This document shows positions 8,526-19,386 of a DNA stretch of 64,000 nt, in pieces (position 1 is the first letter of the stretch; each line of letters starts with the position of its first letter). The notes under the pieces were generated by a model that made no database searches, was not told where the DNA came from, and saw only the letters and a list, made by a program, of their open reading frames with translations. Both the position numbers and the translations under genes were made by a program. The stretch is from Sphingobium sp. 15-1 (GTDB lineage: Bacteria; Pseudomonadota; Alphaproteobacteria; Sphingomonadales; Sphingomonadaceae), in the NCBI RefSeq assembly GCF_013375535.1, contig NZ_JABXJG010000001.1, positions 2,108,001 through 2,172,000 on the forward strand, read 5' to 3'.

Positions 8526-9860
8526 TCAGGCCGAAACCACCTCTTCCATGTCCGGCGTGGGAGGCAAGGGCTGCCCGGCCATGGCGGCGGCGAAACGTTC
8601 CCGGTCCAGCCCCTTTTCCCATACCGAAATCACCACCGTCGCCACCGCATTGCCGATGAAGTTGGTGAGACTGCGGCATTCGCTCATGAAACGGTCGACG
8701 CCCAGGATCAGGGTCATGCCCGCCACCGGCACCGAGGGCACGATGGAAAGCGTCGCCGCCAGGGTGATGAAGCCCGCCCCGGTCACACCCGCCGCACCCT
8801 TGCTGGAAAGCATGGCGACCAGCAGCAGCAATATCTGCTCCTCCAGGCTCAAATGGACATTGGTCGCCTGCGCGATGAACAGCGCCGCCAGCGTCATGTA
8901 GATGTTGGTGCCGTCCAGGTTGAAACTGTAGCCGGTCGGCACGACCAGCCCGACCACCGATTTGCGGCACCCGGCGCGCTCCATCTTCTCGATCAGGCTC
9001 GGCAAGGCCGCCTCGGAGGAGGAGGTGCCCAGCACCAACAGCAACTCCGCCTTCAGATAGCGGATGAGATGCAGGATGTTGAACCCCGCCAGCCGCGCCA
9101 CCACGCCCAACACCACCAGCACGAACAGCAGCGACGTCAGGTAGAAGGTCGCCACCAGCCCCACCAGATTGGCCAGCGCCCCCACGCCATATTTGCCGAT
9201 GGTGAAGGCCATCGCGCCGAAAGCGCCCAGGGGCGCGGCTTTCATCAGGAAGGACACCAGCTTGAAGATGGCGTGGCTGGCCGATTCGAGCACCGTCATC
9301 AGCGGATCGGCCTTCTCCCCGATCATGGTGAGCGCGATGCCGAACAGGATCGCGACGAACAGCACCTGCAGGATATTATGCCCGTCCGCCACGGCGGAGA
9401 TCAGCGTGCCGGGGATGATGTCCATCAGGAATCCGGTCAGCGTCCGGTCATGCGCCTGCTGCTGATATTGCGCCACCTTGCCGACATCCAGCGTCGCCGG
9501 ATCGATATTGAGGCCCGCGCCGGGATGCACGACATTGGCGACGATCAGCCCGACGATCAGCGCCAATGTCGAAAAAGTCAGGAAATAAGCGAAGGCCTTC
9601 GCCGCCACCCGGCCGATCGCGCCCAGCTCCTTCATCCCCGCCACGCCGGTCACGATGGTGAGAAAGATGACGGGCGCGATGATCATCTTGACCAGCTTGA
9701 TGAAGGCTTCGCCCAACGGCTGAAGCGCCACGCCGGTTTCGGGGAAAAAATGCCCGATCGCCACGCCCAACGCGATCGCGATCAACACCTGGACATAGAG
9801 CTGGCGATAGAATGGCAGGCGCGCGACGGCCTGATCAGACGGCGTGGTCGAAGGCAGCAT
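8526..9860 (-). CDS. dctA: C4-dicarboxylate transporter DctA
   Basis: This is a sodium or proton-coupled dicarboxylate symporter of the DAACS family (444 residues), which imports succinate, fumarate and malate. The sequence begins [18 protein letters not shown]. It contains the serine-rich re-entrant loop [16 protein letters not shown] and the substrate-binding stretch [19 protein letters not shown], both hallmarks of DctA. About eight membrane helices are expected. The start is placed at 9860 because AAGGGGAC lies a short way upstream; the open frame extends to 9938 without family support. It converges on cpdR with a 7-base gap. Confidence 0.95.
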
Positions 9861-9988
9861 GATGGTTTGCGTCCCCTTTTCGCACCGCAGCATATGGCTT
9901 GGCGGGCTGCTGTCCAGAAGAATAGCGGGAGCGCTCAATTTCCCGCTTGCGCTACCTGCCGCCCCCCGCTATTGGCCCACTCCACCGT

Positions 9989-10063
9989 GGGCGTGTAGCT
10001 CAGTGGTAGAGCACTGTGTTGACATCGCAGGGGTCGCAAGTTCAATCCTTGCCACGCCCACCA
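9989..10063 (+). tRNA. tRNA-Val (anticodon GAC)
   Basis: A complete cloverleaf of 75 bases. The acceptor stem GGGCGTG pairs with CACGCCC. The D arm is GCTCAGTGGTAGAGC. The anticodon stem CTGTG/CGCAG encloses loop TTGACAT with anticodon GAC. The T arm carries TTCAATC, and CCA is encoded. A strong terminator follows. The candidate defence genes begin directly beyond it, but no copy of the tRNA 3' end was found at the far side of that block. Confidence 0.97.
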
Positions 10064-10068
10064 TGATC

Positions 10069-10102
10069 AGGCCCGGACCCGTATCGGTATCCGGGCCTTT
10101 TC
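10069..10102 (+). terminator. Rho-independent terminator of tRNA-Val
   Basis: GGCCCGGA and TCCGGGCC form an 8-bp stem around a 12-base loop and are followed by TTTT. It ends the tRNA transcript and also sits close to the 3' end of the convergent helicase gene. Confidence 0.85.
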
Positions 10103-10146
10103 TGTTTCCGGCCATGTTTGGTGTGTCCTGCGACCTTGTCGGCTCC

Positions 10147-13089
10147 TCATCCCGGCGCGGCCGGAAATCGGGCTATGGCGGACAGGTCTATCGCCAGAGC
10201 GCGCGCTTCCTTTTCGTTCAGGTCCACCCGCTTCAGCATCCGCGCGAACGCCTCCGGGTCCGGCTGGCCCAGGGCGAGCCGGTAATAGAGCAGATCCTTC
10301 AGCATCTGTTCGCGACGCGCCGACCGAAGGCTGAAGCGCCAATCGAAGCTGATGCTCACCGGTCGTCCCCTCTCCGGCAGCCACCAGCGTTCCAGCCCCG
10401 TCTTTCCCGGCGCCTGCTGGCGCGCCAGGGTGAGAAGCGCGCCGAAGGGGCTGCCTCCCCCGCTGCTCGCCAGCGCGTCGCGGCCATGCGCATCGGCCAG
10501 CGACTGCCGCACCGACAAGCTGCCATAGCGCGCGATGCGCCCTTCCCGCTGCTCGAAATCGACGGGATCGGTGGGCAGGTCCCAATGCACGATCCTGCGG
10601 CACCAGAGATGGAAATCCAGCCCCTCCTGCCCGATGGAGGTCGTGCAGAGCATGTGCGGCCAAAAGGGCGAATTGAAGGCGCGCCGGAGCGAATCGCTGC
10701 GGACGCGCTTGCCCTTCCGACCGCCCGACCGGCCCGGTTCCCCGCCCGCGAAGGGGGTCACGGCCTGCACCGGAACGCGGTATTTGCCCTTGCCGCGCCG
10801 GAACTGGACAAGACCGGGCCGATCAAGGAGGCAGCGCGCCAGTTGATCCACGATCTCGATCCCGCGGGCATCGCCCAGCCGGCCGAGCAAGCCCATCTGC
10901 TCGTCGATGACCGCTTCGAACCCGCCCTTGAGCATCGCCTCGCACAATGCGTCGGGGTAGCGCGACCGGTCGGACGCCGCGAGGATGAGGTCAGCGAAGG
11001 TCCGGTGCCCCAGATAGGATCGCAGATGGTCCCAGAGGAAGGAGAATGCGCGCTGCCTTTCCGCCTTGCTGTCCTGCGGAACATCATGCCGGGCAAGGCA
11101 GCGCGCGAAGATCGCGCCGGGGGAGGCGATCAAATGCCAGGCAAGCCCCTCCAGCTCGGCACGCGATATTTCGGAAATCGCGTCGATTGTCCGCCAATCC
11201 TTCGCCTTCGCGCTTTTGCCCGTCTGCGCGGCCATGCCGGAAACATGCTGGTAGCCTTGCCCCGAAATCCGGCGTTCGATGCCGGCGGCGACGATCCAGT
11301 TCGGCCTCTTCTCGCGCCCCGCAAGAGAAATGCGCTTCGCCCGAAGATAGTCCTCCAGCCTTTCCACCGCATGGCGGCGCACATCCTCCAGCGATGCGTC
11401 GGCCGATTTGAGCGGGTCGATCGCATGCGACAGATGCGGCCATGGCATGAACAGGCTAATCAGCGCGCCGCTCTCGTTCCCGCCGGACCGCAGCAGCGGC
11501 GCAGGGGCCTTCTCCTTGGGCTTGCGCAGGCCGCCGTTCAGGCTGATCGAGAGCAAGGCGGAGACCGCCGTGGGCGCGCCTCTCCATTTGCTGAACAGCA
11601 ACGTCTTGCCGGGCAGCCGCTTTCGGGAGGACCATGGGCCTTCCAGTTTCCACCAGCGCACGGTCGGCGGCTGCCAGGGGAGCGCCAGATGCGCGGATCG
11701 CCCGGCCATTTCCGAAAGAAGCCGCAATTGGGGATGGGCGAACCGTCCGCTGCCCGAACCGGCTTCCACAGCCGCCGGTCCAGCAGCCGATAGCCTGTCC
11801 CATATCTTGTAGCCATGCATCGTCTGCGCGGGATAAGGGATCGAACTCCACATGGCGGGCGCCCATCCGGCGAATTCCTTCCCGCAGCTCGCGGCCAGAT
11901 GCCGGAAGACGACCAGATCCCGCGCCTCCACCTCGACGCGGCGATTGTCGCGCTCGAACAGATCCTCCTCATGCACGAGCGCCCGCTCCGTCCGGGCCAT
12001 GAGCGGTCGCAGCACCTGCTCGACACGCTCTTTCGCGGCCAGAACCGCCTGACGCACCGCCTCGATCGGTCCGGCGGCATCCAGGGCATCGTGATAATCG
12101 CGCATCGCCGCTTCCACGGCGGTCCCGCTGCCCGGATCGTCGGCCAGGAAAGCGGCAAGGTCGACAAGCGCCCGATAATGCTCGACGGGGTGAAGCTCCT
12201 CCCCATCCAGGCGGCGAAGGCGATAGGGCGTGGCGGACAGAAGGAGGAGCGCGGGCCGATCCTCGCCGCCGAGCAGCGCGTGGACCAGCAACCGGTGCAC
12301 CCGCGCCCTCTCCCGCTTCAGGGGAATATCGCTTTTCTCCTCGCGGGGGAGGATCAGGTCGGCATAGCGGTGAAATTCGTCAAGGATGATCAGGTCCGGC
12401 CGGACGGTCTTCGAACGGAGCGCCGCCAGCGCCAGCGCCGATCGAAACCGGGCGACGAACTCCAACATGTCCACATCGTCGCGCTTGAGCCATTCCATGA
12501 TGGCCTTTTCGACATTGCCGTCCGGGCAGTCGAACATGTCCCGCAGCGCGCGCTCGATGCCGATATGGGTGTAGCCTTTCAGGCTGGCGGCGCGCTCCCC
12601 CAGCAGCGGACGTTTATTCGGCCCCCGCGCATTGTCCATTTGCAGGACGAAGGGCCTCAAGCTGTGGTAACGGTCGAGCGCGGACCGGATCAGCGCCCTC
12701 TCCGCCTTGCGCCCGGTGCGCGGCCCCGGTTTCCAGCCGGGCAGGCTGGTCTCGGGCGTGAAGGTGAAGATGCGGTAGCCATCGCCTTCCTCGGGCGGAT
12801 CGCCGGGCACCAGGGCAAGCCTGTCCTCGCCGCTGTCGTATTCCTTCTCGTCGATCCCGGTGAGCGACACGAATTTAAGCCGGTTCTGCCGGACGATCTC
12901 CAGACTGGGGCAAAGATACATGACATTCAGCCGCCGCCGCTTCGCCCGCAGCCCCGCCGCGACCGCCCGCGCTATGACGGTCTTGCCAAGGCCGACCTCG
13001 TCCGCGACCAGAAAGCGTCTGGGGCCGGGCGCATCCAAGCGTTGCAGCGCGACCTCCACGGTCCGCCGCTGAAATTCGGCCAAATCCAT
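10147..13089 (-). CDS. SNF2/RapA-like superfamily 2 helicase, third gene of candidate defence operon
   Basis: A large helicase-like ATPase of 980 residues. Walker A is DEVGLGKT at residues 30-37, in the form used by SNF2/RapA-type translocases. The DEFH box is at about 237-240 and motif III SATP at about 285-288. The C-terminal RecA lobe carries TSIGQEGLDF near 816 and an arginine-finger motif VI (QREGRIARYG) near 846. The stretch between about 290 and 800 is long and has no motif I recognise. Its start overlaps the stop of the phospholipase D-like gene by one base (TGATG). With its two partners it resembles nuclease-helicase antiphage systems. That function is inferred. Confidence 0.85.
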   Translation of the reverse strand: MDLAEFQRRTVEVALQRLDAPGPRRFLVADEVGLGKTVIARAVAAGLRAKRRRLNVMYLCPSLEIVRQNRLKFVSLTGIDEKEYDSGEDRLALVPGDPPEEGDGYRIFTFTPETSLPGWKPGPRTGRKAERALIRSALDRYHSLRPFVLQMDNARGPNKRPLLGERAASLKGYTHIGIERALRDMFDCPDGNVEKAIMEWLKRDDVDMLEFVARFRSALALAALRSKTVRPDLIILDEFHRYADLILPREEKSDIPLKRERARVHRLLVHALLGGEDRPALLLLSATPYRLRRLDGEELHPVEHYRALVDLAAFLADDPGSGTAVEAAMRDYHDALDAAGPIEAVRQAVLAAKERVEQVLRPLMARTERALVHEEDLFERDNRRVEVEARDLVVFRHLAASCGKEFAGWAPAMWSSIPYPAQTMHGYKIWDRLSAAGPAAVEAGSGSGRFAHPQLRLLSEMAGRSAHLALPWQPPTVRWWKLEGPWSSRKRLPGKTLLFSKWRGAPTAVSALLSISLNGGLRKPKEKAPAPLLRSGGNESGALISLFMPWPHLSHAIDPLKSADASLEDVRRHAVERLEDYLRAKRISLAGREKRPNWIVAAGIERRISGQGYQHVSGMAAQTGKSAKAKDWRTIDAISEISRAELEGLAWHLIASPGAIFARCLARHDVPQDSKAERQRAFSFLWDHLRSYLGHRTFADLILAASDRSRYPDALCEAMLKGGFEAVIDEQMGLLGRLGDARGIEIVDQLARCLLDRPGLVQFRRGKGKYRVPVQAVTPFAGGEPGRSGGRKGKRVRSDSLRRAFNSPFWPHMLCTTSIGQEGLDFHLWCRRIVHWDLPTDPVDFEQREGRIARYGSLSVRQSLADAHGRDALASSGGGSPFGALLTLARQQAPGKTGLERWWLPERGRPVSISFDWRFSLRSARREQMLKDLLYYRLALGQPDPEAFARMLKRVDLNEKEARALAIDLSAIARFPAAPG

Positions 13090-14897
13090 CAGGCGGCTCC
13101 GTGGATGGCGTCGTGCAGCGCCTGCAGGAACGGCCGGACCTCCGCGAGATCGTCGAGCGCGGCGCGCCGCTCCTCCTCGTCAGGCCATGATTCGAATGTC
13201 TCGCGGAAGGATTCGAGCATCGCCATGATGCCGGCGATCCGACGCTCGAAGGCGGCCTGGTCGCTGGCCCAGGCGGAGAGCATCGTCTCCAGCGTGAACA
13301 TCGCCGCGAACCGCGCTCCATCCCCTCTCCGGACGCCGGTCGGCTGCGGATCGGACCAGCATTCCCCCGCCGTGCCGTCGATCCCGTCGAGCCGCGAACG
13401 GAGCCAATCGCGGAACCGGCCCGCGCCCACATAGCGGGCAAGGAGCGCGCGGTCGCGGCGCTCCTCGTCCAGCCCGTCGACCCGCAGCGACAAGACCCAG
13501 CTCCGGGAGATTCCGGCGTCGTCCGCGCTGACGGCGCGGAAGGTCACCAGCGAAGTCTGCTCGCTGAGCGCGGGCGGACGCTCCAGCAGCCGCACCGACC
13601 GGACGCCCGGCGCCAATGCGATCCATGCTTCCGGGTCAAGGAACGGCGAAACCGCAAAGCGCGCATGCTTCAACGGCTCTTCGCAGCCCTCCCCGATGAG
13701 CAGCAGCAGCCCCGCGCCATCATAGACGAGACGCAGTTCGCATTCGAGGAAACGGCTTATATGCTCGTCAAGCTGGCGGGCCGCCTTCTCCTGCGCGACC
13801 AGCTCCGGATCAGGCGCCGCCCCGTCAAATTCGAACCCGCCCGCGACGAATGCGTGGAGCGAATCGCTGAGCGCCGGATCGTCGATGTCCAACAGGGCGA
13901 CGGCTTCGGCGTTCGGCCCGACCAGCCCGCGTTTGGTGAGATTGGCGCTGCCGATCATCAAGGCGGTCCGCTTCCCGCGGGTCATGGCGATCAGCTTGGC
14001 ATGGACGCCGGTCGGCGGCAGTTCCGTGAACTCGCCCACCGTCTCCCCCTGCTGTTGCTCGACGGAGACGGAGGTTTCCGGCTCGGGCGGCGTGCCGGTC
14101 CGGAAGGCGATGCCCGTCGCCGGGGAAGACCGGCTCGCGGCCATGTCGGTCGTGAGCAAGGTGATCCCCTCCGACCCGGCCGCCTTGACGACTTCGCCCA
14201 GGCCCATCCTGTCGATGAACGGGCTGACGGCGGAGGCCTTCTCGGCGCGCGGCAGCAAGGGCGCGCCGATGAAGGGACGCATCGCCCCCGGTTGCCGCCA
14301 CAACAGGCTCCGCACCTTCACGCCGGCAGGCGCGGCCCAGCGGGCCGACTGGAGTTCGCCAAGCTCGGCGGGCGAGAAGGCCGCCTTGCCCAAAAGATCC
14401 TCGGCCAACAGCGCAATGTCCGGGATCGGCCTTGCCCCCCTGCCCTTCGAACTCACCAGCAGAAGCCCGGCATCGAGATCGGCGGCGCCCGTCAGATTGC
14501 GGCTGCCGATCCAGAAACGCCATTGCACGCCATCCCCGCCTTCATATCGGACGAGGGCGACTTTCGGATGCCAGCTCTCTGTCCGCTCGTTCGCCTCGAT
14601 CGCGCAGAGCATGGTGTCGAGCAGCGGCAGGACCGACCGATGCGCCCGCGGCGCGATCACCCGCCCAAGCTGGTGGAGCACGAGCAGCCGCCCCCGCATC
14701 CGGTCGAAAGCCTCCACCAGTTCAAGCGGCGAATTTTCGAACTCCGCCTCTCCATCTCCCCCAAGCGCCAGCACCAGGCCCAGCAGCGCGATCAGGTCGA
14801 GCGAATAGGTCGCGACCACGGCCCTGGAGACCGTCTGCCCCTCGGCAGGCCGCAGCGCCCCGAAGATCGAGATGCGGTCCCGGCGGCGAAAGCTCAT
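13089..14897 (-). CDS. Phospholipase D-like protein with two HKD-type motifs, second gene of candidate defence operon
   Basis: A 602-residue protein with two phospholipase D half-sites: H110-x-K112 followed by GSRNLT at 131-136, and H299-x-K301 followed by GSANLT at 316-321. This H-x-K...G-S-x-N-L-T layout is typical of PLD-superfamily nucleases and defence effectors, but the Asp of the classical HxKxxxxD is not at its usual place in either half. The C-terminal 260 residues are not recognised. The start at 14897 overlaps the preceding stop as ATGA, and the gene is followed by the helicase with a one-base overlap. Nuclease activity is inferred from the motifs. Confidence 0.82.
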   Translation of the reverse strand: MSFRRRDRISIFGALRPAEGQTVSRAVVATYSLDLIALLGLVLALGGDGEAEFENSPLELVEAFDRMRGRLLVLHQLGRVIAPRAHRSVLPLLDTMLCAIEANERTESWHPKVALVRYEGGDGVQWRFWIGSRNLTGAADLDAGLLLVSSKGRGARPIPDIALLAEDLLGKAAFSPAELGELQSARWAAPAGVKVRSLLWRQPGAMRPFIGAPLLPRAEKASAVSPFIDRMGLGEVVKAAGSEGITLLTTDMAASRSSPATGIAFRTGTPPEPETSVSVEQQQGETVGEFTELPPTGVHAKLIAMTRGKRTALMIGSANLTKRGLVGPNAEAVALLDIDDPALSDSLHAFVAGGFEFDGAAPDPELVAQEKAARQLDEHISRFLECELRLVYDGAGLLLLIGEGCEEPLKHARFAVSPFLDPEAWIALAPGVRSVRLLERPPALSEQTSLVTFRAVSADDAGISRSWVLSLRVDGLDEERRDRALLARYVGAGRFRDWLRSRLDGIDGTAGECWSDPQPTGVRRGDGARFAAMFTLETMLSAWASDQAAFERRIAGIMAMLESFRETFESWPDEEERRAALDDLAEVRPFLQALHDAIHGAA

Positions 14898-16087
14898 GCA
14901 ACCGCCCGCACGGTGTCGATCATGTCCCGGACCACCGGCCATCTATAATCCAGCGGCGTGGCGATCCCCTTGCGCCAATCCCGCCGCCGCGTCTCGTTGA
15001 GCAGGAAGGCGCGGCTCTCCTTCAGGTCACGCTCCCGCGAAGCCATGTCCCTGGCAAGGGCGTCGAGCGGCCGCTCCTCCCGCGTCCAATCCATGACGAC
15101 CTCCATGAAGCGGGCAAGCCCGTCGTCGATCCGGATGGAGGAGCGGAGGGCGCTCAGGTCAAGCGCGAGCGCGGCGTCCCTGTGCCGCGCAACCAGCCGG
15201 GGCAGCGCATCGGCGTGCGCCCGATCGTTGGAGCGCCCCTCCTCATTCCGCTTCGCCTCGATCAGCGCGGCATAGGCGGCGCGTGCGATGCAGGCGACGG
15301 ATGCCGCGCGTTCGGCCAGGGTCAGGTCGTCGCGTTCGGTCGCCGTCGCGAAACGCCGGACCTCCGCCGACCAGAGGGAGTCGGTCGTCACGCCGGCTTC
15401 GGCCAATCTGCTCAAAAGCGGCTGGGTTCCGCCCTCTCCCGCCGTCCGCCACTTCGTCCGGATATAGTCCGCCTCCACCTTCCGGAGAGCGAAGTCCAGC
15501 TTTCCCGTCCTGCTCCGCCATCCGGGAGGAGCGGGCGGCAATCCTTCGAACAGGGGGGCGATGGCGATCCGCCCTTCATCGCCATCCTCCCTTCCGAGCA
15601 GGCGCGGCCACAGCCCCTGAAGCTGCACCTCCGTCGGCGGATCGGACAAGCCGGCGACCGCGCTGGCCATCCGCCAGGATCGCAAGGCCGTCCAGTAAAT
15701 GGTGCTGGCGCGCACCACCGGCCGCTGGTCCGCTTCATATTTCATCCATCCGGAAATGCCGGAATTCTGCAGAATCTTGACCGTCGCCATCAGCCGTTTG
15801 GAATAGCGTCGCTCGATCTCGAACAATTTCTCCCGGCTGAAGCGCTCTCCCGCCGTCCCAGCCAGCAGCTCCTCATAGGCCCAGGCGACGAAGAAGACAT
15901 AGCGGAGCTGCGCATGCTGGACCGAGGTGCCGGGGAAGAAACGGTCGGCAAAGGCGAAATGGATCGGCGCGAAGCCAAGCTCGTCCCGCGTCCCGTCGGA
16001 CGACAGGGTCGACAGATATTTGCTGGCGGCGGACCGATCAGCCTCCGAAAGCATGAACCAGCCGATCTTCGGTTCAGAATTGCGCAT
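14894..16087 (-). CDS. DUF6361-like protein, first gene of candidate defence operon
   Basis: A 397-residue protein whose N-terminus follows the pattern I recall for DUF6361: KIGWFMLSEADR at about 7-18, RDELG at 34-38 and FFPGTS at 50-55, followed by a hydrophobic helix (LRYVFFVAWAY). Its biochemical function is not known to me. The start is set at 16087 because GGAGGG lies 7 bases upstream; the open frame runs to 16144. It leads the operon and its stop overlaps the start of the PLD-like gene. Proteins of this family occur beside helicases and PLD proteins, which supports a sensor or specificity role, but that is inference. Confidence 0.75.
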   Translation of the reverse strand: MRNSEPKIGWFMLSEADRSAASKYLSTLSSDGTRDELGFAPIHFAFADRFFPGTSVQHAQLRYVFFVAWAYEELLAGTAGERFSREKLFEIERRYSKRLMATVKILQNSGISGWMKYEADQRPVVRASTIYWTALRSWRMASAVAGLSDPPTEVQLQGLWPRLLGREDGDEGRIAIAPLFEGLPPAPPGWRSRTGKLDFALRKVEADYIRTKWRTAGEGGTQPLLSRLAEAGVTTDSLWSAEVRRFATATERDDLTLAERAASVACIARAAYAALIEAKRNEEGRSNDRAHADALPRLVARHRDAALALDLSALRSSIRIDDGLARFMEVVMDWTREERPLDALARDMASRERDLKESRAFLLNETRRRDWRKGIATPLDYRWPVVRDMIDTVRAVA

Positions 16088-16264
16088 GCGGCGACCCTCC
16101 GCGCGCTGGACCGGATGGGCCGCGAAGAAGCGGACGCCGCGCATCCGGCGTTGAGATCACAGCAAAATTTCCCAAGATCGCACCCCCGCCGGAGGAGTAG
16201 GATCAAGGGCGGCAACCGGTCAAGCCATGCCGAACGAGATTATGATCGATACCGAAACGACCCG

Positions 16265-16420
16265 CTAAGGCGCGGCAAGCGAGTAAGGGACCGCCTGATC
16301 CCGGTCGACGAAGGCCAGCGGATCGGCGGACGTCTCCGCCAGAAGCAGCGAGGCCGCAACCGACAGCAACAAGGTGGCGGCAAGCGGCAGGGAGTTGAAG
16401 GAAAGGGTCTGCCCGATCAT
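16265..16420 (-). CDS. Small membrane-associated or secreted protein of unknown function (51 aa)
   Basis: This is a short ORF that reads MIGQTLSFNSLPLAATLLLS and continues through a hydrophobic stretch (about residues 11-28) to a polar C-terminus ending SLAAP. An excellent AAGGAGG ribosome site lies 9 bases before the ATG, which is the main evidence that it is translated. It is divergent from the ROK kinase gene and outside the defence operon. The hydrophobic stretch could be a signal peptide or a single membrane anchor. No family is recognised. Confidence 0.6.
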   Translation of the reverse strand: MIGQTLSFNSLPLAATLLLSVAASLLLAETSADPLAFVDRDQAVPYSLAAP

Positions 16421-16504
16421 CGTCTATTGCCTCCTTGGCATCAGCGCTTCGGACGCGCTTTCCTGCCTTTATCGCTACCGGTTATGGCATATGATTGGAA
16501 CGTC

Positions 16505-17527
16505 ATGATGAACGCTGAACCGATATTGGCCGGGGTCGAACTTGGGGGAACCAAGGTGTTCGTGCTGCGCGCGCGCGGCAGGACGATATGGGGCCGGGAG
16601 ATCATTCCCACCACGACGCCAGCCGAAACGCTATCCAAGGCCGTGGCCATTCTGCAGCGCTGGCATGCGGAAACTTCTTTCGCGGCGATCGGCATCGGCA
16701 GCTTCGGCCCGCTTCGGCTGGACCGTCACGCGCCGGATTTCGGCTTCATGCTGCCGACGCCCAAACCGGGTTGGGCAGGCGCCGACATTTTCGGCACGCT
16801 GACGGCGCCTTTCGATTGCCCCGCCGCGATCGACACCGACGTCAACGGCGCGGCGCTCGCGGAATTGCGCTGGGGCGCGGGCGCGCAAGCGGACATTCCC
16901 TCCGACAGCCTGTGCTACATCACCATCGGCACCGGGGTGGGTGGCGGCTTTGCCTTCAACGGCCGCCCCGTCCATGGCGCCATGCATCCGGAAATCGGCC
17001 ATATCCGCGTCCCCCGCGCGCCCGGCGACAGTTTTGCGGGCAGTTGCCCCTTTCATGGCGACTGCATCGAAGGGCTGGTGTCCGGCCCGGCGCTTGCCAG
17101 GCGCTTCGGCGTTCCGGGTCATGAAATCGACGCGGCCGATCCGCGCTGGAACAATGTGGCGAACGACATCGCCCATCTGGTTTCGACCATCCTGCTCAGC
17201 ACGGCGGCGCGTCAGGTGCTGATCGGCGGCGGCGTCGGCATGGGACGGACCGATCTACTGAACCGGGTCCGGGAAAAGGTCGTCGCCCAGCTTGGAGGCT
17301 ATTTGCCGCATGTCGATGGCGACAGCATCGGCCGAATCGTTACCGCTCCGCTGCTTGGCGATCAGGCCGGCCCGCTGGGCGCGGTGGCCCTGGCCATGGA
17401 TGCGCTGGAGGGGAAAGGGATCAGTGCACGCCCCGCCGACGAAAAAGCGGCAGGAAGATCATCGGCACGATCAGGGCGACCACGCCCGCGACCAGCAGAT
17501 CGTCCACCAGCCGATAGAGGATCGTGA
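16505..17527 (+). CDS. ROK-family sugar kinase, probably fructokinase
   Basis: A 340-residue kinase of the ROK family. It has the N-terminal phosphate-binding motif GVELGGTKVF, catalytic region DTDVNGAALAEL, GTGVGGG near residue 145, and the zinc site CPFHGDC preceded by EIGHI. These match bacterial fructokinase of the ROK type, which makes fructose 6-phosphate. The nearby manA, which interconverts mannose 6-phosphate and fructose 6-phosphate, fits. After about residue 307 the frame runs into an arginine/proline-rich tail that overlaps the antisense small membrane gene. That tail looks like readthrough of a lost stop. ATGs at 16487 and 16508 are alternative starts. Confidence 0.88.
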   Translation: MMNAEPILAGVELGGTKVFVLRARGRTIWGREIIPTTTPAETLSKAVAILQRWHAETSFAAIGIGSFGPLRLDRHAPDFGFMLPTPKPGWAGADIFGTLTAPFDCPAAIDTDVNGAALAELRWGAGAQADIPSDSLCYITIGTGVGGGFAFNGRPVHGAMHPEIGHIRVPRAPGDSFAGSCPFHGDCIEGLVSGPALARRFGVPGHEIDAADPRWNNVANDIAHLVSTILLSTAARQVLIGGGVGMGRTDLLNRVREKVVAQLGGYLPHVDGDSIGRIVTAPLLGDQAGPLGAVALAMDALEGKGISARPADEKAAGRSSARSGRPRPRPADRPPADRGS

Positions 17528-17672
17528 AGAACATCAGCACCGCAGCCGCCGCCAGGGCAGGAAGGAGCAAGCGAAGCAGACCCTCCTCCATCCGGAAAAG
17601 GAGCTGCCCGACCAGACCCGGAACCGGCTCTTGCCGCCGCCCGTAAATGCTGCCCCTGCCCAACCGGTCCAT
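17421..17672 (-). CDS. Small two-helix membrane protein of unknown function (83 aa)
   Basis: From the ATG at 17672 the product has an N-terminal polar stretch (MDRLGRGSIYGRRQ) and two hydrophobic segments, about residues 35-53 and 58-75, ending FRRRGVH. AAGGAT precedes the ATG at a plausible distance. It overlaps the 3' end of the ROK kinase frame by 107 bases, on the opposite strand. Because the hydrophobic pattern is clean and the kinase tail is low-complexity, this gene is probably genuine. The longer frame to 17861 has no support. Function unknown. Confidence 0.55.
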   Translation of the reverse strand: MDRLGRGSIYGRRQEPVPGLVGQLLFRMEEGLLRLLLPALAAAAVLMFFTILYRLVDDLLVAGVVALIVPMIFLPLFRRRGVH

Positions 17673-17902
17673 CGTCTGATCCTTGCCGAAATTGTGAGTT
17701 GCATATAGAAACTGAAAGTCGGATTTCCATAGGCGAAGATCGCTACGGATCGTTTCCGGTCCTGACACATGTCCGCGGTCTTCCTCCTGTCGTGGGACAG
17801 CCTTAGCCCTGCCCCTTTCGGGATGCTTCGCGGTCACGGCCCACCACCCGCTCCGCGACAAGAATCCTTGCCTGCCACGAACGACCGCTCATAAGGAATC
17901 GC

Positions 17903-18721
17903 ATGACCGCCACCCGCCTCCTCGCCCATATGGTCGAAAAGCCCTGGGGCCGCGCCGACATCCCCTTCATCGCCCCGGGCGACGGCAGGCGTGTGGGAGA
18001 AGTCCGGTTTTCGCTCCCAAAGGCAGCCGGCCCGGACAGGCCGCTCCCGCTGCTGGTCAAATATATCTTCACCAGCGAGAAGCTGTCGGTTCAGGTCCAT
18101 CCCAATGACGCGCAGGCACGGGCGCAGGGGCTGGCGGGCGGCAAGTCCGAATGCTGGTATATTCTCGATGCGGAGCCGGCTGCGCGGCTGGGCATCGGCC
18201 CGACGCGCAGCCTGACGGCGGAGGATTGGCGCGCCGCCGCTCTCGACGGCAGCATCGAAACGCTGATGAACTGGAAACCGGTGAGCGCGGGCAGCTTCTA
18301 TTATATCCCCGCCGGTACGGTGCATGCGATCGGCGGCGGCGTGACATTGGTGGAAGTGCAGCAGAATAACGACGTGACCTACCGCCTCTACGACTATGGC
18401 CGCCCGCGCGAGCTGCATCTGGAGGAGGCGATAGCCGTCAGCGTCACCGCACCCTATGCAATGCCCGACCGCATCGTCCCCGGCACGGCGGAAGAAAGGC
18501 TGATCACGGGCCCCGATACGCCCTTCATCCTGGACATGGTGCAGGGAAAGGCGGGAAGCAGCCAGCGGATGGAGGGCGAGATGCTGTGGTTCGTTCCACT
18601 GGCAGGCTCCGGCACGATCGAAGGGGAGCCGTGGCGCCAGGGCGAATGCTGGCTGATCGAGGGAACCGCCGCCCTTGCCGTCGAAACCGGCATGAGCGCG
18701 CTGCTCGCCCGCCTGCCCTGA
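17903..18721 (+). CDS. manA: Mannose-6-phosphate isomerase, class I
   Basis: A zinc-dependent cupin-type isomerase of 272 residues interconverting mannose 6-phosphate and fructose 6-phosphate. It supplies mannose for glycans and polysaccharide. The metal and active-site motifs are clear: KYIFTSEKLSVQVHPND near residue 53, ECWYILD near 83 and PAGTVHAIGGG near 136, followed by EVQQNNDVTYRLYDYGR. It is shorter than E. coli ManA (391) but typical of the compact alphaproteobacterial form. An AAGGA site precedes the ATG. The nucleosidase gene follows 32 bases later. Confidence 0.93.
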   Translation: MTATRLLAHMVEKPWGRADIPFIAPGDGRRVGEVRFSLPKAAGPDRPLPLLVKYIFTSEKLSVQVHPNDAQARAQGLAGGKSECWYILDAEPAARLGIGPTRSLTAEDWRAAALDGSIETLMNWKPVSAGSFYYIPAGTVHAIGGGVTLVEVQQNNDVTYRLYDYGRPRELHLEEAIAVSVTAPYAMPDRIVPGTAEERLITGPDTPFILDMVQGKAGSSQRMEGEMLWFVPLAGSGTIEGEPWRQGECWLIEGTAALAVETGMSALLARLP

Positions 18722-18753
18722 TCGAACATCGAGACAAGAAAGAGGGTATGATC

Positions 18754-19386
18754 ATGCCGCATGGAGAAATGATCGCGAACAAGCGGGTTCTGTTCGTGAT
18801 GGCGGTGGAGGATGAATATGGCCCCCATCTCAAGGCCCGCTTCGATCCGCTGATGGTCGGCGTCGGTCCGGTGGAGGCGGCGCTCCATAGCGGGCTGGCG
18901 CTCCAGCGGCTGGAACGGGATGCCGCCTTGCCCGATCTGGTCGTGTCCCTGGGGTCGGCGGGATCGCGCATCTGCACCTTGGGCGAGGTCTATCAGGTTT
19001 CCAGCGTGTCCTGGCGCGACATGGACGCCTCCCGCCTTGGTTTTCCAAAGGGCGTGACGCCCTTCGCGGACCATCCGCCGGAAATGCCGCTGCGCACGCC
19101 GCTGGAACTGCGCGCCGCGCGGCTGTCCACTGGCGCGAATATCGTGGGCGGCGAGGATTATGCCGCGATCGACGCTGATATGGTCGATATGGAAACCTTC
19201 GCGGTGGTGCGCGCCTGCCAGCGCTTCGGCGTGCCGGTGATCGGCCTGCGGGGAATATCCGACGGGCCGGGAGAACTGGCCGATATGCTGGGATGGACGC
19301 AATTGCTGGCCCTGCTGGACGAAAGGCTGGCGCAGGCGGTGGATATGCTGGCGGAGGCGCTTGGAGGCGAAGCGGTGCCGGAGTGA
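18754..19386 (+). CDS. 5'-methylthioadenosine/S-adenosylhomocysteine nucleosidase-like protein
   Basis: A phosphorylase/nucleosidase fold protein of 210 residues. It has the ordered features of MTA/SAH nucleosidases: VLFVMAVEDEYG near the start, VGVGPVEAA, a central VVSLGSAGS, the substrate-binding VDMETFAVVRAC and the catalytic SDGPGEL. The enzyme cleaves methylthioadenosine or S-adenosylhomocysteine to release adenine. Adenine phosphoribosyltransferase is encoded next to it (convergent), which fits adenine salvage. ATG 18754 is chosen because AGAGGG lies at a proper distance; ATG 18748 would be too close. Substrate choice within the family is not certain. Confidence 0.85.
   Translation: MPHGEMIANKRVLFVMAVEDEYGPHLKARFDPLMVGVGPVEAALHSGLALQRLERDAALPDLVVSLGSAGSRICTLGEVYQVSSVSWRDMDASRLGFPKGVTPFADHPPEMPLRTPLELRAARLSTGANIVGGEDYAAIDADMVDMETFAVVRACQRFGVPVIGLRGISDGPGELADMLGWTQLLALLDERLAQAVDMLAEALGGEAVPE

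Follow-up and report, generated by a model that had tools for sequence, protein, structure and literature searches.

By sequence, a complete copy of the Azaca antiphage system in Sphingobium sp. 15-1, and the anatomy of its PLD-fold protein ZacB

What kind of system is formed by three closely packed minus-strand genes at positions 10147-16087 of a 64,000-nucleotide stretch of the Sphingobium sp. 15-1 genome (this whole stretch being hereafter the window), and how might their products act together? An earlier note on this DNA had proposed a candidate antiphage operon combining a helicase, a phospholipase D (PLD)-like protein and a family-specific third protein, and had allowed that such sets may already be listed in defence catalogues. 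Profile searches with the three proteins back this proposal, with the difference that the system is not new: the PADLOC profiles ZacA (E-value 4.3e-72, residues 26-412 of 416), ZacB (8.9e-95, residues 20-607 of 617) and ZacC (9.6e-211, 701 bits, residues 2-972 of 980) are all matched over nearly full length, and PADLOC and the literature both lead to Azaca. The features by which Azaca is recognized, namely ZacA, a PLD-like ZacB, an SF1/SF2 helicase ZacC and their adjacency in the order A-B-C, are all present. Judged by sequence, the three genes are almost certainly Azaca (ZacABC), and the operon is a complete copy of this already catalogued system. In Pfam, ZacA matches DUF6361 (PF19888; 8.9e-10, 38.5 bits against a cutoff of 25) and ZacC matches ResIII and Helicase_C, both over cutoff, while the PLDc_2 match of ZacB is below cutoff; in NCBIfam, the matches of ZacB and ZacC all lie far under the cutoffs and ZacA is without any match.

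Azaca is reportedly the work of Millman et al. 2022. In the sources that mention it, ZacC is named as its helicase (methods of PMC12278908), a PLD-like domain is given (table of PMC10952713, which cites Millman et al. 2022), the system is placed under nucleic acid degradation/nuclease activity, 'validated or predicted' (table of PMC10855318), and its mechanism is entered as unknown (table of the 2026 review PMC12926258). Among the literature matches listed, none is by its title a mechanism paper on Azaca, and those under the Zac gene names or DUF6361 hold nothing on the system.

The operon comprises zacA (14894-16087), coding for a DUF6361 protein of 397 residues; zacB (13089-14897), for a single-chain PLD-fold protein of 602 residues with two repeats; and zacC (10147-13089), for an SF2 (Swi2/Snf2-like) helicase of 980 residues. 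The open reading frame (ORF) list of the window gives minus-strand frames at 10147-13089 (980 residues), 13089-14942 and 14894-16144; we prefer the starts at 14897 for zacB and 16087 for zacA over these longer frames, because the former aligns with the first residue of a homologue (L014) and GGAGG precedes the ATG of the latter. The zacA/zacB junction is ATGA, with four bases common to both genes, and the zacB/zacC junction is TGATG, with one; the ORF list and these junctions confirm the three overlapping genes as they had been described. The near full-length PADLOC matches of all three argue that the trio is no chance run of ORFs in GC-rich DNA. Two plus-strand open frames lie antisense to it, one of 649 residues against zacC (9844-11793) and one of 1031 residues against zacB and zacA (14432-17527), the second continuing in frame into a ROK-family gene; we read both as GC-rich shadow frames. 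Between 9900 and 19000, promoter-like sites are as numerous as in shuffled sequence and terminator-like sites are fewer.

The linkage of the three genes extends well beyond this genome. A contig scan with a ZacA alignment gave 419 relatives, of which the best 80 were kept, so that distant relatives are missing from the locus counts; a few near-copies are included (L153 and L016 stem from one genome, and L082 and L084 repeat G012 and G053). Counting any matched piece, zacB stands behind zacA in 79 of these 80 loci and both partners follow in the order A-B-C in 78, the profile gaps between the genes never exceeding 66 and 87 bases. In 63 loci all three are covered to at least 90% in one frame each; the other 17 are split, incomplete or truncated at a contig end. 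The one locus with zacB and no zacC (L132) ends with its contig, and in another (L151, 10004-11077) zacA stands without partners, the sole case of the 80 not due to a contig end. This count excludes the outcome, named in the note as a refutation, that the homologues never co-occur. A search with ZacB of 100 genomes gave 12 matches, in the genome itself and in 11 of 60 others of the genus, and none in 39 genomes from other genera of the order; the order A-B-C is kept in 11/11 of the same-genus loci. With Pfam DUF6361, 398 genomes of the phylum yielded five carriers, including our own; all five DUF6361 genes lie in zacABC loci, and the four besides our own in full ones.

The new point of the analysis is the anatomy of ZacB, in which, by sequence comparison, active-site sets like those of BfiI and SauUSI are found in a Tdp1-like chain. 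Both sequence and model give two complete HxK...SxN...(D/E) sets within one chain, with HxK pairs at 110/112 and 299/301. The string of repeat 1 is HxK...SRN...(D/E), and that of repeat 2 is HAK...S-x-N...NxE, as in BfiI and SauUSI, with which repeat 2 aligns (3.3e-3 and 1.7e-4, respectively); this alignment places in ZacB the active site HxK...SxN...NxE of the PLD restriction endonucleases. For conservation counts, sequences below 90% coverage were dropped (none for ZacA, 4 for ZacB and 16 for ZacC, of 87 each). Both histidines and both lysines of the HxK pairs are kept in 84/84 ZacB sequences, as are S132, N134 and an acidic residue at 142; S317, N319 and E331 are kept in 83/84. In a true HKD motif, the aspartate is the seventh residue after the histidine, and this aspartate is typical of lipases. 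It stands at neither repeat's position in any of the 84 sequences. Hence, of the description of ZacB as a two-HKD PLD-like protein, the two PLD-fold repeats stand, whereas the label 'two-HKD' is loose. Only two PDB relatives are found by sequence under an E-value of 1, both DNA-cutting restriction enzymes, and at E-values up to 1 ZacB matches four PADLOC families: ZacB, DrmC twice and PDC-M27B.

ZacC agrees with the earlier description of a 980-residue SNF2-like helicase with ATPase motifs: motifs I (DEVGLGKT), II (DEF), III (SATP), V and VI are present, about 530 residues separate motif III from motif V, and most motif positions are at least 95% conserved across 72 ZacC sequences. ZacA is modelled with confidence (mean pLDDT 89.1) as a mostly helical protein, and its residues invariant in 53 sequences include D35, E36, G38, D48, F51-P-G-T-S55, Y63, W69, Y131-W132, R382 and W383. 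A role of ZacA in sensing or target recognition is a putative one. In phage records a single ZacA match was found, spanning 19% of the protein.

The surroundings of zac loci bear on their biological role. In a sample of 59 non-redundant loci, the closest gene on either side was examined when it lay no more than 1500 bases away (54 upstream and 48 downstream, or 102 of 118 sides; genes from a home-made caller); taken together, these neighbours match 85 PADLOC families at 1e-20. The 25 of these 85 that are listed include PDC-S01, MkoA, MkoC, Hhe, JetA, LeoA and AbiE as well as type I, IIG and III restriction-modification; the MkoA and MkoC matches, which are helicases, are perhaps cross-matches. 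The control, consisting of 50 other genes of this window and not of random genomes, yields four families at 1e-20, each matched by a single gene (three are RtcR-type regulators and the fourth is mad3), and the expectation of other defence genes near zac loci is in keeping with this contrast. In two same-genus genomes, among the most distant zac copies of the genus, zac lies beside genes that by Pfam are AddA-like (UvrD and PD-(D/E)XK) and AddB-like (L018, 10415-16161; L021, 6726-15959); a gene for a 1113-residue ResIII helicase adjoins zac in L021 and in L016 (14045-17386).

The operon stands at a tRNA gene, the stop codon of zacC lying 83 bases past the end of tRNA-Val(gac) (9989-10063, plus strand). 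This tRNA and the preceding dicarboxylate transporter gene are conserved in the relatives compared, and the tRNA marks the junction of a variable segment (10064-18750, both boundaries approximate) that carries zacCBA, the ROK-family gene (16508-17527, plus strand; Pfam ROK 1.5e-46) and a weakly PMI-like gene (17903-18721, plus strand; Pfam PMI 0.0026, under cutoff). DNA similarity to relatives ends at 10063-10076 in nearly all rows (at 10101 in G004, the genome of both L062 and L033) and resumes at 18743-18791 in those matching there; 16066-18743 has no match in the relatives' stretches compared, whole genomes not having been searched for the ROK and PMI-like genes. Of the 19 relatives with sequence on the far side of the site, seven have an empty site, no other large gene separating the tRNA from the nucleosidase gene (window 18748) (L061, L062, L064-L067 and L072; in L062 an ORF of 85 residues precedes it). 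Another seven have an integrase-like protein of 345-351 residues first after the tRNA (L054, L055, L057-L060 and L063) and L068 a different one, which brings to eight those with an integrase or integrase-like gene; the remaining four have other genes there (L056, L069, L071 and L073). Four of the eight were compared with Pfam Phage_integrase, L054, L055 and L063 scoring over cutoff and L068 just under it (27.0 against 27.1), and the other four were called by their similar N-terminal ends. The similarity breaks together with the contents of the site in relatives imply that some 8.7 kb of DNA occupies a used insertion site here, and that the genus has an insertion hotspot at tRNA-Val(gac), next to the dicarboxylate transporter gene. 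Comparison of 9971-10200 with 15500-19000 gave no exact repeat of at least 13 bases that would represent an attachment repeat of the tRNA 3' end, only matches of 10-11 bases, and no integrase like those of relatives is seen beside the operon in the window (ORFs by eye, Pfam on four); hence any mobile element would be a decayed one.

The history of the genes is most simply read as one of horizontal transfer, and sequence comparisons suggest that the operon was probably acquired in this way at the tRNA-Val hotspot. In a quick, midpoint-rooted ZacC tree, which carries a long-branch warning, the window's protein belongs to a starred set of 13 rows, where it is grouped with Mesorhizobium, Methylobacterium, Roseovarius and Sphingomonas, and to a long-stemmed branch of 17 rows (14 Pseudomonadota, one Bacillota and two unlabelled). 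Alphaproteobacterial orders are mixed, and other same-genus copies (L015-L017, and L018, L019, L021 and L023) are placed far from the window. Among the best 80 of 419, the closest ZacA match is from Mesorhizobium (73%), ahead of the same-genus S. fuliginis (69%). Partial ZacA matches occur in 18 plasmid records, nine of them predicted conjugative, none covering 80% of the query. The trio of plasmid pMpar-1 bears the annotations 'DUF6361 family protein', 'phospholipase D family protein' and 'helicase-related protein'; there (L163, 6818-16756) zacA is immediately preceded by a tyrosine recombinase gene, and zacC is followed by a gene for a PD-(D/E)XK nuclease.

How might the three products act? 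We favour, with a probability of about 0.6, a translocase-guided cutting of phage DNA, in which ZacC would load on the invading DNA as a translocase and ZacB would be the effector, a metal-independent DNA phosphodiesterase acting via a covalent phosphohistidine at a single active site that the two repeats form between them. Such catalysis is that of BfiI and Tdp1. ZacA would join or license the other two as a link or lock, either by recognizing the target or by holding ZacB off until ZacC engages, and the outcome would be the cutting of phage DNA. A bolder version, in which ZacB represents a new functional PLD branch, a single-chain pseudo-dimer with a BfiI-type site and Tdp1 architecture that ZacC drives along phage DNA to attack ends or protein-capped ends instead of a recognition sequence, with ZacA as the firing switch, strikes us as very unlikely; it would explain discrimination of self from non-self without a methylase.

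The same three proteins could instead be turned on the cell's own genome once infection is sensed, a suicide suggested by analogy with Hachiman: it has the same plan of helicase plus nuclease, and its helicase-nuclease complex is described as responding to DNA damage. That no DNA methylase family occurs among the operon's listed PADLOC matches or the 50 window genes at 1e-20 fits such an outcome, but the likeness to Hachiman is one of general plan and no result here points to damage sensing; we regard this as possible though unlikely. Abortive infection by another route, with ZacB as a membrane phospholipase that kills or stalls the infected cell while ZacC senses phage DNA, is somewhat less plausible still to us, given that both PDB relatives cut DNA, that the HKD aspartate is absent from both repeats throughout the 84 sequences and that the NxE of BfiI and SauUSI is present in repeat 2. 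A housekeeping role in DNA repair, where a Tdp1-like activity aided by a translocase would remove protein-DNA adducts, appears highly improbable in view of the patchy spread (DUF6361 in 5 of 398 genomes of the phylum and ZacB in 11 of 60 others of the genus), the hotspot location, the defence neighbours and the relatives on plasmids.

The assignment removes one item from the list of candidate new systems. The counts for DUF6361 genes (5/5) and zacA loci (78/80) suggest that the presence of DUF6361 in practice marks Azaca, and plasmid proteins still labelled 'DUF6361 family protein' could therefore be named. For a system whose mechanism is tabulated as unknown (PMC12926258), residues to target include H110, K112, H299, K301 and E331 of ZacB, the Walker lysine K36 of ZacC, and the invariant D35-E36-x-G38 and F51-P-G-T-S55 of ZacA.

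Set against known systems, the operon is the same as Azaca in gene content, order and near full-length profile matches, with no difference found, and these matches rule out a new defence system. DISARM shares the plan of a helicase (DrmD) and a PLD protein (DrmC); ZacC has helicase motifs in common with DrmD, but its score of 60.2 bits is far under the cutoff of 610, as is that of ZacB against DrmC (15.7 bits, cutoff 133), and no Drm family (including the DUF1998 protein DrmB) or DNA methylase is found by PADLOC at 1e-20 among the 50 other window genes. DISARM is thereby ruled out, as the earlier note had held. Mokosh is likewise rejected, the four PADLOC families of ZacB being without an MkoB-type PLD partner, and for ZacC no Ham family of Hachiman is among the matches listed (25 of 29 PADLOC families). 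The PLD restriction endonucleases BfiI and SauUSI (2c1l, 7clg) share the active-site string of ZacB repeat 2, but they have one repeat per chain and pair up, whereas ZacB has two per chain. Enzymes of this type have a specific DNA-binding domain within the same protein, and SauUSI also carries a helicase within its own chain, whereas ZacB is made with a separate one. The chain of ZacB is like those of Tdp1 and PLD3, single-chain DNA phosphodiesterases with two repeats; unlike these, it possesses an additional C-terminal beta part and helical bundle (385-600) and has two operon partners.

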